From assembly GCA_009773645.1 (NCBI GenBank), contig WSYB01000003.1, forward strand, positions 1 to 64,000: 64,000 bases of DNA, given 5' to 3'. This DNA is from Geobacteraceae bacterium (GTDB taxonomy: Bacteria; Desulfobacterota; Desulfuromonadia; Geobacterales; Geobacteraceae). Of the stretch, positions 37,045 to 47,780 are shown piece by piece. Within the stretch, counting starts at the first letter, position 1. Every line of letters starts with the position of its first letter. The notes beneath the pieces were generated by a model. That model was not told where the DNA came from, did not search any database, and was given only the letters and a program-made list of their open reading frames with translations. Position numbers and translations under genes: made by a program.

Positions 37045-38091
37045 ATGGGATACGAAATATTAGGATTGCCGCTGATCTATTATCTCGCCATGCTGGGCAA
37101 AGTAATTGTAGTCTTTCTTTTTGTTCTGCTCACGGTTGCCTATGCGACGTACGCCGAGCGAAAGATAATCGGCCACATGCAGGTGAGGCTTGGCCCTATG
37201 GAAACCGCTTGGCATGGTCTGCTGCAGCCGATTGCCGACGGCCTGAAGCTGTTCTTCAAGGAAGAGATAATTCCTTCCCAGGCGAGCAAACTCGTTTTCC
37301 TCCTATCGCCGTTTATCGCTCTGGTACCGGCCTTCATCGCCTTTGCAGTCATTCCCTTCGGCGACACCATCGAGATTGCGGGCTACAAGATCCCCCTCCA
37401 GATTGCCGCCTATTATGACACCGCCGCAGGAAAGGTGATAGACGTCAATGTCGGCGTGCTCTATATTCTCGCCATGGCGGGGATGGGCGTCTACGGTATA
37501 GTTCTGGCCGGTTGGTCATCAAACAATAAATATTCGCTTCTGGGCGGGCTGCGTTCAGCCGCGCAGGTGATATCCTATGAACTGGCCGCGAGTTTCGCCC
37601 TTGTTGCGGTGTTCATGCTGTCCGAATCCCTTTCTCTTCAAAAAATAGTAGCCGACCAGGCCGGCGTTTTCGGGTGGTATGTCTGGAAGCAGCCGCTGGC
37701 ATTCATCCTCTTCTGTATATGCTCGGTCGCGGAAACAAACCGTACCCCCTTCGACCTTCCTGAAGCGGAAAACGAACTGGTAGCGGGATTCGGCACCGAA
37801 TACTCCAGTATGAAGTACGCCATGTTCTTCATGGCTGAGTATGCCAACATGGTCACCGTCAGCGCAGTTGCGGCAACCTTCTTCCTGGGCGGCTGGCAGG
37901 GACCGACTCCCTGGCCGATCCTCAACTTTGTCGCCAAGGTGTATTTCTTCATGTTCTGCTTTATCTGGATCAGGGCCACTTACCCCAGATACCGTTACGA
38001 CCAGCTCATGCGTCTCGGCTGGAAAGTTTTCCTGCCGCTTGCACTGCTCAATATTGTCGTGACGGGCATTGTTGTTACGCTTTTTAAATAG
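37045..38091 (+). CDS. nuoH: NADH-quinone oxidoreductase subunit H
   Basis: A 348-residue membrane subunit with eight helices that links the peripheral and membrane arms and forms the quinone entry. VRLGPMETAWHGLLQPIADGLK and AETNRTPFDLPEAENELVAG are the hallmark segments; the acidic residues in the latter belong to the first proton-path site. GGGGAAGAGGAGCAA precedes the start. Confidence 0.97.
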   Translation: MGYEILGLPLIYYLAMLGKVIVVFLFVLLTVAYATYAERKIIGHMQVRLGPMETAWHGLLQPIADGLKLFFKEEIIPSQASKLVFLLSPFIALVPAFIAFAVIPFGDTIEIAGYKIPLQIAAYYDTAAGKVIDVNVGVLYILAMAGMGVYGIVLAGWSSNNKYSLLGGLRSAAQVISYELAASFALVAVFMLSESLSLQKIVADQAGVFGWYVWKQPLAFILFCICSVAETNRTPFDLPEAENELVAGFGTEYSSMKYAMFFMAEYANMVTVSAVAATFFLGGWQGPTPWPILNFVAKVYFFMFCFIWIRATYPRYRYDQLMRLGWKVFLPLALLNIVVTGIVVTLFK

Positions 38092-38118
38092 TTCAAAACT
38101 ACCGCAGAGGATATCGCC

Positions 38119-38517
38119 ATGATAATGCCATTGCTTCAGGGACTCAAAATAACTTTCTCCCACATGTTTAAAAAAACTATCACTCTCCAGTATCCCCATG
38201 AGAGACCGAACATACCGCCGGGGTTCAGAGGGTTGCACGCCCTCAACGTATCCCATGACAAGGCAAAATGTGTTGCCTGTTACCTCTGCCCCACCGTATG
38301 CCCGGCCAAGTGCATTACCGTGGAGGCCGGTGAGGACGCCAATCACGACAAGTACGCCGCCAAATATGAAATTGACATGCTCCGCTGTATCTTCTGCGGG
38401 TACTGTGTCGAAGCCTGCCCGGTAGATGCCATCAGAATGACCGATACCTTCGAGCTGGCCAATATGAAGCGGGCGGATTTTGTCTTTACGAAAGAAACAC
38501 TCTTAGAAAAGAAATAA
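38119..38517 (+). CDS. nuoI: NADH-quinone oxidoreductase subunit I
   Basis: A 132-residue 2x[4Fe-4S] ferredoxin-like subunit holding clusters N6a and N6b. The motifs are CVACYLCPTVCP and CIFCGYCVEACP. It passes electrons from NuoG toward NuoB. The family is usually 130-180 residues, so this is a short form. Confidence 0.97.
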   Translation: MIMPLLQGLKITFSHMFKKTITLQYPHERPNIPPGFRGLHALNVSHDKAKCVACYLCPTVCPAKCITVEAGEDANHDKYAAKYEIDMLRCIFCGYCVEACPVDAIRMTDTFELANMKRADFVFTKETLLEKK

Positions 38518-44930: not shown

Positions 44931-45060
44931 ATTCACCTCACAACAGCAGCCTGAATTACAGGTAAAGCATGGTTCATCATCAAACCTTTTCGACAAAATT
45001 CTCTATTTCTTTAACGCATTTTCCCGGTGGCCTCGCAGAACTCACACTGGAAGGAGTGAT

Positions 45061-46131
45061 ATGGATACGAAGATGACGCAATCTGAACTGCTCACCCAGA
45101 TCCAGCGCAGAAACGAGGAGCTTTCCATCATGATGGAGATCGGCACGGCCCTAACCTCTAGCCTCGACCTCCAGGAAGTCCTGACGATGATCATGGGGAA
45201 GGTGAGCACGCTTCTCAAGCCGAAGTTCTGGTCGCTTCTGCTGGTGGACCGGGAAACGGAGGAGCTCTATTTCGAGATTGCGGTCTCGCCGGTCGCTGCA
45301 AAGCTGAAAAAGGTCCGATTGAAGATAGGTGAGGGGATAGCCGGATGGGTTGCCGCCAACGGTCAGCCGCTCCTCATTGCCGATGCCCGGCAGGACGAGA
45401 GATTCGTCAGGTACGGGGACCTGAAGGTCTCCTTCACGACCCGCTCGGTGATCTGCGTCCCCCTGAAGGTCAAAGATCGGGTCCTGGGCGTCATCGAGCT
45501 GATCAACAGCTTCGAAGATGTCCGCTACGGCGAAGCCGATCTCATGGTGCTCTCGGCCATCGCGGACTTTGCGGCCATCGCCATTGAGAATGCCCGCAAC
45601 TATGAGCGGGTGAGCGAACTGGCCATCACCGACGACCTGACCGGACTATACAATGCCCGTCATTTCAACAGGATTGCCGACCGGGAGGTGGCCCATGCAG
45701 CGCGGTACGGGCACCCCCTTTCCCTGGTGTTCTTCGACATCGACCGCTTCAAGAGGGTAAACGACGCCCACGGCCACCTGGTGGGGAGCAGGGTGCTGGC
45801 GGAGACAGGAGGGCTCATCAAGCGGTACACCCGGTCTGTGGATTATGCCGCCCGGTTCGGCGGGGATGAATTTATGGTGCTCCTGCCGAACACCCCCAAA
45901 GCGGGGGCGCTGGTGGTGGTTTCCCATCTCAGGGACATACTCAGGGCACACCGCTTCCGGGCCGATAACGGCAAGGAGATCCGGATAACGGCGAGCTTCG
46001 GCATCGCTTCCTATCCCGACGATGCCAAGAGCAAGACGGAACTGCTTCGCCTGGCCGACGAGGCTATGTACGCCGTAAAAGGGACAAGCCGGGACGGAAT
46101 CCAGCTGTCCGAGCGGCGAGGGAAGAAATGA
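45061..46131 (+). CDS. GAF-GGDEF nucleotide cyclase, predicted hybrid (cGAMP/c-di-GMP) type
   Basis: A 356-residue cytoplasmic protein: short coiled coil, GAF sensor domain (about 20-175), GGDEF domain (about 185-350). The active site is RFGGDEF (267-271), with an inhibitory-site RSVD (258-261) five residues before it. In the substrate pocket the usual NDxxGHxxGD reads NDAHGHLVGS: Ser243 replaces the guanine-contacting Asp. In Geobacter hybrid-promiscuous GGDEFs this Asp-to-Ser change accompanies 3',3'-cyclic GMP-AMP synthesis. The product is thus predicted, not proven. AAGGAGTGAT precedes the start. Confidence 0.88.
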   Translation: MDTKMTQSELLTQIQRRNEELSIMMEIGTALTSSLDLQEVLTMIMGKVSTLLKPKFWSLLLVDRETEELYFEIAVSPVAAKLKKVRLKIGEGIAGWVAANGQPLLIADARQDERFVRYGDLKVSFTTRSVICVPLKVKDRVLGVIELINSFEDVRYGEADLMVLSAIADFAAIAIENARNYERVSELAITDDLTGLYNARHFNRIADREVAHAARYGHPLSLVFFDIDRFKRVNDAHGHLVGSRVLAETGGLIKRYTRSVDYAARFGGDEFMVLLPNTPKAGALVVVSHLRDILRAHRFRADNGKEIRITASFGIASYPDDAKSKTELLRLADEAMYAVKGTSRDGIQLSERRGKK

Positions 46132-46319: not shown

Positions 46320-46907
46320 ATGCATAACACGCTCGAACTGCTGTTCGGCTCACGGACCAGGGCCAACCTCCTCGGCTGGTTTTTCGGCCACACGGAGGAG
46401 ACCGGCAACGCCCGACAGCTGGCAGAGGTGCTGCAGGAGGATGCCGCTGACTTAGGCCGGGAAATGGCGCTGCTGGAGGAGGCGGAAATCCTCCGGTCGA
46501 GCCGTAAGGGTACCCTCAAGCACTACCGGGCCAATACCAGCTGCCCGTTCTACCAGGAGCTGAAGGGGCTGGTGCTGAAGACCGCCGGCGCTGCCGGCCA
46601 GCTAAGGAGCGCACTCCGCGCCCTTGACGGGGTCAGCTATGCCCTCGTCTACGGTCCCTATGCCGAGGGGGAGGAAGAGGCCCACAGCGACATCGAGGTC
46701 ATGATCATCGGCGACATCGACCTGCCCCGGCTGGATATTCTCATGGAAGAGCTGGAAAAGAACCTCGGCAGGACCATCCACTATGTGGTCTATGAGCCGC
46801 AGGAATTCGCGGCTAAAAAACAGGCGAAGAACGGTTTTATCATGGAGGTGCTCCAGGGGCAGACGATCATGCTCGCGGGGGACCGGGATGCCCTTTCTGC
46901 GGCCTGA
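46320..46907 (+). CDS. winged-helix protein fused to a degenerate nucleotidyltransferase
   Basis: A 195-residue protein. Residues 1-75 look like an ArsR-type winged helix (ARQLAEVLQEDAADLGREM, then a wing RKGTLKHYRA). Residues about 100-190 resemble a minimal nucleotidyltransferase, but the usual GSxxxG...SDxD is YGPYAEG...HSDIE: Pro113 replaces Ser and Glu126 the second Asp, so activity is doubtful. Such proteins often pair with HEPN proteins; a broken HEPN gene lies 2.4 kb away. TGGAGGGGATGAC precedes the start. Confidence 0.65.
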   Translation: MHNTLELLFGSRTRANLLGWFFGHTEETGNARQLAEVLQEDAADLGREMALLEEAEILRSSRKGTLKHYRANTSCPFYQELKGLVLKTAGAAGQLRSALRALDGVSYALVYGPYAEGEEEAHSDIEVMIIGDIDLPRLDILMEELEKNLGRTIHYVVYEPQEFAAKKQAKNGFIMEVLQGQTIMLAGDRDALSAA

Positions 46908-47018
46908 GACCCTACCACCCTTCATCTTGCAATCTTGCATGCCTGACCCTACAGCCTCTCTCTACAGCCCCTCTATATGTGCTATTTTCGAGAACGTGCC
47001 CTAAACCCTGAAGATATG

Positions 47019-47047
47019 TTGAAAGGTGACCACATTTCATATATAAT
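47019..47047 (+). promoter_or_regulatory. sigma-70 promoter of the Phd/PIN module
   Basis: TTGAAA-N17-TATAAT: 5/6 and 6/6 matches, ending 33 bases before the antitoxin start. Confidence 0.7.
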
Positions 47048-47079
47048 AATAACTACTTTTTGAGTGTCGGGAGTTAATC

Positions 47080-47340
47080 ATGCTAACTGTAGGTATAAAG
47101 GAACTGAAGGCAAAGCTGAGCAGCTATGTGGAGAAGGTCGGTGCAGGCGAAGAGGTTGTGGTGACGGATCATGGCAAGGAGGTTGCGCTCCTGGTTCCGA
47201 TTTCCAAGGAGCGACAGGCTGTGAGAGCCCTGATGGATTCCGGCAAAGTGCAGTGGTCCGGGGGGAAGCCGAAAGGGACCTCCGGCGTCAGGACAAAAGG
47301 GAAGCCGCTGGCCGACACAGTTCTGGAGGAGCGCCGGTGA
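47080..47340 (+). CDS. Phd/YefM-family antitoxin
   Basis: An 86-residue antitoxin of the prevent-host-death type. The N-terminal domain (TVGIKELKAKLSSYVEKV...VVVTDHGKEVALLVPI) binds DNA, and the C-terminal tail, rich in Lys and Gly, would block the toxin. It overlaps the PIN toxin start by 4 bp (GTGA), the classic coupling. It probably represses the promoter just upstream. Confidence 0.85.
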   Translation: MLTVGIKELKAKLSSYVEKVGAGEEVVVTDHGKEVALLVPISKERQAVRALMDSGKVQWSGGKPKGTSGVRTKGKPLADTVLEERR

Positions 47341-47780
47341 TCATTTACCTCGATACCAGCAGTCTCGTTAAACTTTACGTGGATGAGGCATATTCGGACA
47401 GCGTCAGGGAGTGGACAGCAGAAGCGGAAGTAATCGCCACGTGCAGAGTAGCGCACCCGGAAACGCTTTCAGTCTTGACGAGGCGCTATAACAGTGGCGA
47501 CATCGCTAAAAGGGAGTACGAGAAGGTGGCGCATGTCTTTGCCGGGGAGTGGGGGAGTTATGCCGCACTCGATTTCGACGAGATCGAGGCGGGGCGGCTC
47601 GTGAAAAAATACGGCCTGCGCGGATTCGACGGGGTACATCTGGCCTCTGCGAAGCTTCTTGCCTCGGTCGATGCAAATGTTCAAGTTGCCTTTTCTTCCT
47701 TTGACGAAAGGCTTAACAACGCCGCGCGGAGGGAGGGATTTGTGGTCCTGGCGGCTGGCGAAGAATTGAGTTTGAAATGA
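47337..47780 (+). CDS. PIN-domain toxin (VapC type)
   Basis: A 147-residue PIN nuclease with its acidic site spread over IIYLDTSSLVKLY (first Asp), the Glu of VAHPETLSVL, GFDGVHLASA and SSFDERL. PIN toxins cut tRNA or mRNA. The GTG start at 47337 lies in the antitoxin stop. All active-site acids appear present, so it is probably functional with its Phd-type antitoxin. Confidence 0.85.
   Translation: MIIYLDTSSLVKLYVDEAYSDSVREWTAEAEVIATCRVAHPETLSVLTRRYNSGDIAKREYEKVAHVFAGEWGSYAALDFDEIEAGRLVKKYGLRGFDGVHLASAKLLASVDANVQVAFSSFDERLNNAARREGFVVLAAGEELSLK

Follow-up and report, generated by a model that had tools for sequence, protein, structure and literature searches.

Which nucleotide signal does a GAF-GGDEF protein make if a serine takes the place of the aspartate that contacts guanine in canonical diguanylate cyclases? 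The question is raised by a gene in contig WSYB01000003.1 of a Geobacteraceae bacterium, the first 64,000 nt of which were analysed (the window). Its sequence makes the gene, which comes from a relative of Geobacter, look like one for an apparently soluble enzyme whose product is the rare signal cGAMP and not the usual c-di-GMP. The share of hybrid-promiscuous (Hypr) enzymes among GGDEF domains is quoted as 0.17% in the consulted part of PMC9140294.

The ORF begins with an ATG preceded by GGAAGGAG and encodes 356 aa (Table 1). On this protein, Pfam recognizes a GAF domain (1.8e-19, GAF families spanning residues 35-177), a GGDEF domain (2.9e-41) and no domain besides these two, which bears out the initial annotation that GGDEF is joined to GAF. 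The stretch NDAHGHLVGS at residues 234-243, from which that annotation had started, is present in the ORF translation. An I-site had been proposed as well: RSVD is located five residues ahead of the GGDEF motif, and its Arg258 and Asp261 are invariant in alignment A1. Five residues are the usual spacing between an I-site and GGDEF.

Table 1. Features of the GAF-GGDEF gene (window positions)
Feature	Position	Strand	Basis
GAF-GGDEF gene, 356 aa, predicted Hypr cGAMP synthase	45061..46131	+	ORF reading and Pfam
Ribosome-binding site GGAAGGAG	45049..45056	+	read in sequence
GAF domain, residues 36-175; best match Lcd1 GAF (5w10)	45166..45585	+	Pfam, sequence and fold search
GGDEF domain, residues 188-344; best PDB sequence match GacA (6d9m)	45622..46092	+	Pfam, phmmer
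Ala199 codon, cross-dimer position (Tyr304 of GmGacA; Arg in most canonical enzymes)	45655..45657	+	
Ser243 codon AGC, position of PleD Asp344 / GmGacA Ser348	45787..45789	+	
I-site RSVD, residues 258-261	45832..45843	+	
GGDEF motif, residues 267-271	45859..45873	+	

Across the window, Rfam at gathering thresholds found one tRNA only, and no GEMM riboswitch near the gene. Downstream, positions 46320-47777 contain a weak match to a Polbeta-like nucleotidyltransferase (below the Pfam cut-off), followed by a PhdYefM antitoxin and a PIN-domain gene. A conserved gene neighbour was sought over 38 sources, namely the window and 37 loci of Desulfuromonadia type (ORFs of at least 90 aa, longest kept). 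Other families recur in at most six of them, a survey that could miss a partner gene because the ORF filter dropped the GAF-GGDEF gene itself in 4 of the 38 sources and many contigs are short.

In the consulted part of PMC6456294, Hypr enzymes are marked by Ser or Thr at position 348 and by GGDE[F/Y] as the only motif that accompanies this Ser/Thr. Those that make mostly cGAMP carry Tyr, Ser, Ala or Gln at position 304, not Arg. The protein studied here has Ser243 at the position of PleD Asp344, GGDEF instead of GGEEF, and Ala199 at the cross-dimer position. The initial annotation had noted neither residue 199 nor the Lcd1-type GAF described below. Its GGDEF domain was compared with GSU1658/GacA and PleD, as the initial annotation had proposed. 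The GGDEF domain of Geobacter GacA (6d9m) is the top PDB sequence match of the protein (phmmer, 6.8e-43), PleD (1w25) matches at 3.8e-28, and Ser243 is placed on the Ser of 6d9m: the residue is Ser, not Asp. With an AlphaFold2 model (mean pLDDT 81.8, pTM 0.52), a fold search retrieved 6d9m (Z 26.8, rmsd 1.9, 168 residues) level with 3ign (Z 26.8, rmsd 1.4, 166 residues) and PleD entries just behind, so that the fold alone cannot pick between a Hypr and a canonical enzyme.

The source genome contains 23 GGDEF matches. Among the 21 that align well, 19 have Asp and two have Ser at the specificity site, the latter being the GAF-GGDEF gene and L016. Two poorly aligned domains outside these 21 have Asp (L022) and Ser (L023). 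The absence of Arg at 199 does not identify a Hypr enzyme on its own, as four of the 19 Asp-bearing domains also lack Arg (L004 N, L008 A, L012 Q, L014 L). The GGDEF domain under study is 49% identical to that of L016 and 29-41% identical to the other 19 well-aligned domains. L016 consists of a Response_reg (Rec) and a GGDEF domain and is the GacA orthologue. That the GAF-GGDEF gene itself is the GSU1658/GacA orthologue was considered and rejected, since it has no receiver domain and the genome carries L016 separately. The GSU1937-type features HAMP and GGDDF are likewise absent from the GAF-GGDEF protein and present in L023 (G000:C33:63245-64558), which combines them with Ser; a few relatives of L023 have an in-frame stop. 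L016 and L023 are thus the Hypr candidates of this genome besides the GAF-GGDEF gene, as far as sequence can tell.

The GAF domain points to a different relative. Searched alone against PDB sequences, it matches 5w10 at 2e-34, then GAFs of PDE5, CyaB2 and PDE10 at 1e-19 to 3e-19; the five best matches are all cyclic-nucleotide-type GAFs. The title of 5w10 is "Lcd1 GAF domain in complex with cAMP", and cAMP activates Lcd1 through this domain (PMC8846402, consulted in part). In comparisons with 24 members of the clade, the Lcd1 fragment yields matches of 6e-30 to 9e-44; it matches GAFs outside the clade, its Gly-bearing relatives and the Lcd1-like group at 7.6e-19 or weaker. By analogy, the GAF most likely binds a cyclic mononucleotide such as cAMP, a proposal with less support than that for the product. 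The chances are about even that it does not, and that it accepts another ligand or serves dimerization only. K and E of the NKFDE motif are absent: the five positions are N149, S150, Y156, D160 and L161. Mapping of the CyaB2 contacts (PMC4411481, consulted in part) onto the GAF yields F56, S58, I73, D120 and V123, with F56 and V123 at the positions of CyaB2 Arg291 and Asn359, and D120 is replaced by Ala in 10 of the 22 sequences of set D. In a fold search with a model of the GAF (pLDDT 83.1, pTM 0.79), 5w10 ranks first (Z 20.8, rmsd 2.6, 169 aligned, 36% identity) but two PtsP GAFs tie with it at Z 20.7. Against this stand the PDB sequence matches and the fact that Lcd1, reported to be cAMP-activated, lacks K and E too (N R F D L at the five positions). 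Furthermore, S58, I73 and D120 match and are common to Lcd1, which also shares W57, N149, D160 and L161.

Both specificity positions were followed through the relatives. The Ser is more than a chance occurrence: position 243 is Ser in 16/16 (L044-L059, of which L059 is partial), 22/22 (L153-L174) and 57/61 (L073-L133) aligned sequences; these sets overlap in part, and some genomes are common to several. The last set comprises the 61 nearest named relatives, L073-L152 being the best 80 of 524. Its remaining members have Gly (three) or an unreadable residue (L133, broken frame, set aside), and their position 199 is Ala in 37, Ser in 14, Gly in 7 and Val in 3, never Arg. In the next 19 relatives (L134-L152), position 243 is Asp in 18 and Asn in one, and position 199 is Arg in 17, Phe in one and His in one. 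Thus, both positions switch at the clade border. The I-site Asp is Cys in 7 of the 61, and L104 has no I-site. The three Gly-bearing records (L126, L127 and L130; labelled Edwardsbacteria, UBP2 or uncultured bacterium) combine GGDEY with Ser at 199, and a third specificity is possible for them on sequence grounds; L130 was left out of alignment A2.

That Ser243, GGDEF and Ala199 are present and kept across the clade supports the Hypr reading of the initial annotation as a prediction. The protein is probably a cytosolic dimeric Hypr enzyme with 3',3'-cGAMP as its main product. A rather improbable alternative is that it is mainly a diguanylate cyclase, in which Ser broadens substrate use and cGAMP is not the physiological product. 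Ser alone is insufficient for Hypr activity, because GSU3350 with a D-to-S change was active but made purely c-di-GMP. In addition, Hypr enzymes make c-di-GMP too, the Arg-bearing ones more of it (PMC6456294, same part). However, residue 199 is Ala here, cGAMP is the reported main product of Hypr enzymes with Ala at this position, and both positions, 243 and 199, are naturally conserved in the clade. Loss of catalysis, which would leave a nucleotide or c-di-GMP sensor, is very unlikely: engineered Ser/GGEEF combinations are inactive (PMC6456294, same part) and clade member L075 has GGGEF, but the GAF-GGDEF gene encodes GGDEF, and all 16 sequences of A1 have D226, D228, K231, N234, D235, D269 and E270 in common.

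A quick tree places the GGDEF domains of the GAF clade in one group with GacA and the three Gly-bearing records (SH-aLRT 96). When the four specificity columns are removed, the Ser-bearing rows still lie on one side of a branch, with a support of 42/0, and the GAF clade has 88/49. A single origin of Ser is not claimed because of the 42/0 value. With this support, and with the GGDEF domain grouping with GacA and the GAF with Lcd1, two origins are both possible: either a GAF of the Lcd1 type was fused to the GGDEF domain of a Hypr enzyme, or Asp changed to Ser and Arg to a small residue as a pair in an Lcd1-like ancestor.

Among 141 genomes of the order, the GAF-GGDEF protein is matched in 45 (E <=1e-70), GacA in 123 (1e-80) and a GSU1937-like protein in 110 (1e-50). 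The initial annotation had linked such enzymes to GEMM-Ib riboswitches. At position 20, GEMM-I riboswitches have G for c-di-GMP and A for cGAMP (PMC9481103), and this nucleotide is a selectivity factor rather than a hard filter (PMC9262584; both consulted in part). It was read at the fixed Rfam position 11, equated with nucleotide 20 of Vc2; GAGCAAACC is not G20. The source genome has 19 GEMM-I matches, 13 with A20 (all ACU) and six with G20. The 13 cGAMP-type riboswitches exist in the same genome as the enzyme; the tie is indirect, since this genome has the two further Hypr candidates.

Genome G040 (one contig, 99% complete) is a simpler case: it has no GacA match, is absent from the 110 GSU1937-like matches, and Ser occurs in 1 of its 22 GGDEF matches, the GAF-GGDEF enzyme. 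Its three GEMM-I matches comprise one each of the A20-ACU, A20-AGC and G20 forms. Eight genomes carry the enzyme and lack GacA; GEMM-I was read in seven of them (G060 left out). A20-ACU was found in three (G040, G050, G133) and in none of G118, G129, G137 and G138. Three controls that match none of the three enzymes have A20-ACU in 0/8 (G112), 0/18 (G114) and 4/9 (G075) cases. Co-occurrence was rejected as proof, as A20-ACU is found in 3/7 carriers versus 1/3 controls. With four of seven carriers lacking A20-ACU and one of three controls having four, the riboswitches fit the Hypr reading without testing it.

Some riboswitch loci deserve mention on their own. In G040, an A20-ACU (cGAMP-type) GEMM-I at C1:1681643-1681719 (L240) and a G20 (c-di-GMP-type) one at 1681831-1681917 (L214) are arranged in tandem, 111 nt apart, upstream of an ORF that encodes a protein with a bacterial Ig domain. 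G133 has a tandem of A20-ACU (C11:38267-38343, L237) and G20 (38067-38145, L215) GEMM-I, 121 nt apart. At the loci of G112 and G114 (L294-L328), nucleotide 20 is G, A, C and once U, and the forms include C20 and A20-AGC. A20-ACU GEMM-I elements precede LysM-like lipoprotein genes, similar by eye, in two genera (L036 in the source genome, L223 in G050).

If the protein is a Hypr enzyme, Ser243 would allow either GTP or ATP to be accepted in each half-site. Asp269 would keep Mg2+ at the distance required by Ser, and Ala199 instead of Arg would remove the guanine bias. By analogy with characterized relatives, the enzyme would be dimeric, release mainly 3',3'-cGAMP and some c-di-GMP, and be inhibited by c-di-GMP at the RSVD I-site. 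The GAF would set the activity of the dimer on binding a small ligand. With less support, the cGAMP made may join the pool read by the 13 A20-type GEMM-I riboswitches of the genome. A relay in which cAMP or another cyclic mononucleotide at the GAF turns on cGAMP synthesis and c-di-GMP at the I-site turns it off is conceivable, but tentative. A cAMP-binding GAF on a cGAMP enzyme was not found described in the titles and abstracts searched, which does not exclude prior mention.

The reported cGAMP sources of G. sulfurreducens are GacA with a receiver input and GSU1937 with a membrane HAMP. If it is a soluble and GAF-gated source, the present enzyme, with matches in 45 of the 141 searched genomes of the order, would bring a cytosolic small-molecule input into cGAMP signalling, and G040 with its sole Ser-GGDEF protein offers a non-redundant test case. 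The Lcd1-type GAF is the unexpected part. If it binds cAMP, two messenger systems converge on one protein; if the relay is true, a single soluble enzyme of 356 aa brings three nucleotide signals together in metal-reducing and myxobacterial lineages.

GacA (GSU1658 / Gmet_1914, 6d9m) shares with the protein the Hypr GGDEF domain, Ser, GGDE[F/Y] and a non-Arg residue at 304, but carries a receiver domain in place of the GAF, and Tyr304 in place of Ala199. GSU1937, the second Hypr protein of G. sulfurreducens, has Ser at the specificity site, too, and its deletion lowers the signal of a cGAMP reporter (PMC8835794); in contrast, it is a membrane HAMP protein with GGDDF, a type that the source genome carries separately (L023). 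In the consulted part of the same paper, Ser is present only in GacA and GSU1937 among 28 GGDEF proteins of G. sulfurreducens, so the GAF-GGDEF Hypr type is absent there. Lcd1, the cAMP-activated diguanylate cyclase of Leptospira, has the same GAF-GGDEF order and a GAF 38% identical over 167 residues. It differs in making c-di-GMP (PMC8846402, same part), and the Lcd1-like relatives L134-L152 have the canonical Asp (18 of 19, one Asn) and mostly Arg at 199, as opposed to Ser243 and Ala199.

The closest parallel comes from another phylum. Among the best 80 of 524 relatives, the clade reaches Myxococcaceae including Myxococcus xanthus, whose L119 is 48% identical over 349 residues and shares the GAF-GGDEF order, Ser, GGDEF and Ala at 199. 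M. xanthus genome AM003 has 18 GGDEF matches, 16 of them assessable (the position cannot be assessed in L187 and L192), and Ser occurs only in L182 (GGDEY) and L184, which corresponds to L119. According to the consulted part of PMC8844925, M. xanthus GacA and GacB are Hypr proteins that synthesize cGAMP in vitro, and neither of them has an important role in growth or development. Provided that AM003 has the same set, L119 would be GacA or GacB, by elimination and not by accession. Read from Met47, L119 has 365 aa. For MXAN2643, residues 11-355 were deleted and a length of 265 is printed (PMC4877007, consulted in part), which is taken as a misprint of 365. An M. xanthus enzyme with the same GAF-GGDEF architecture has probably already been assayed.
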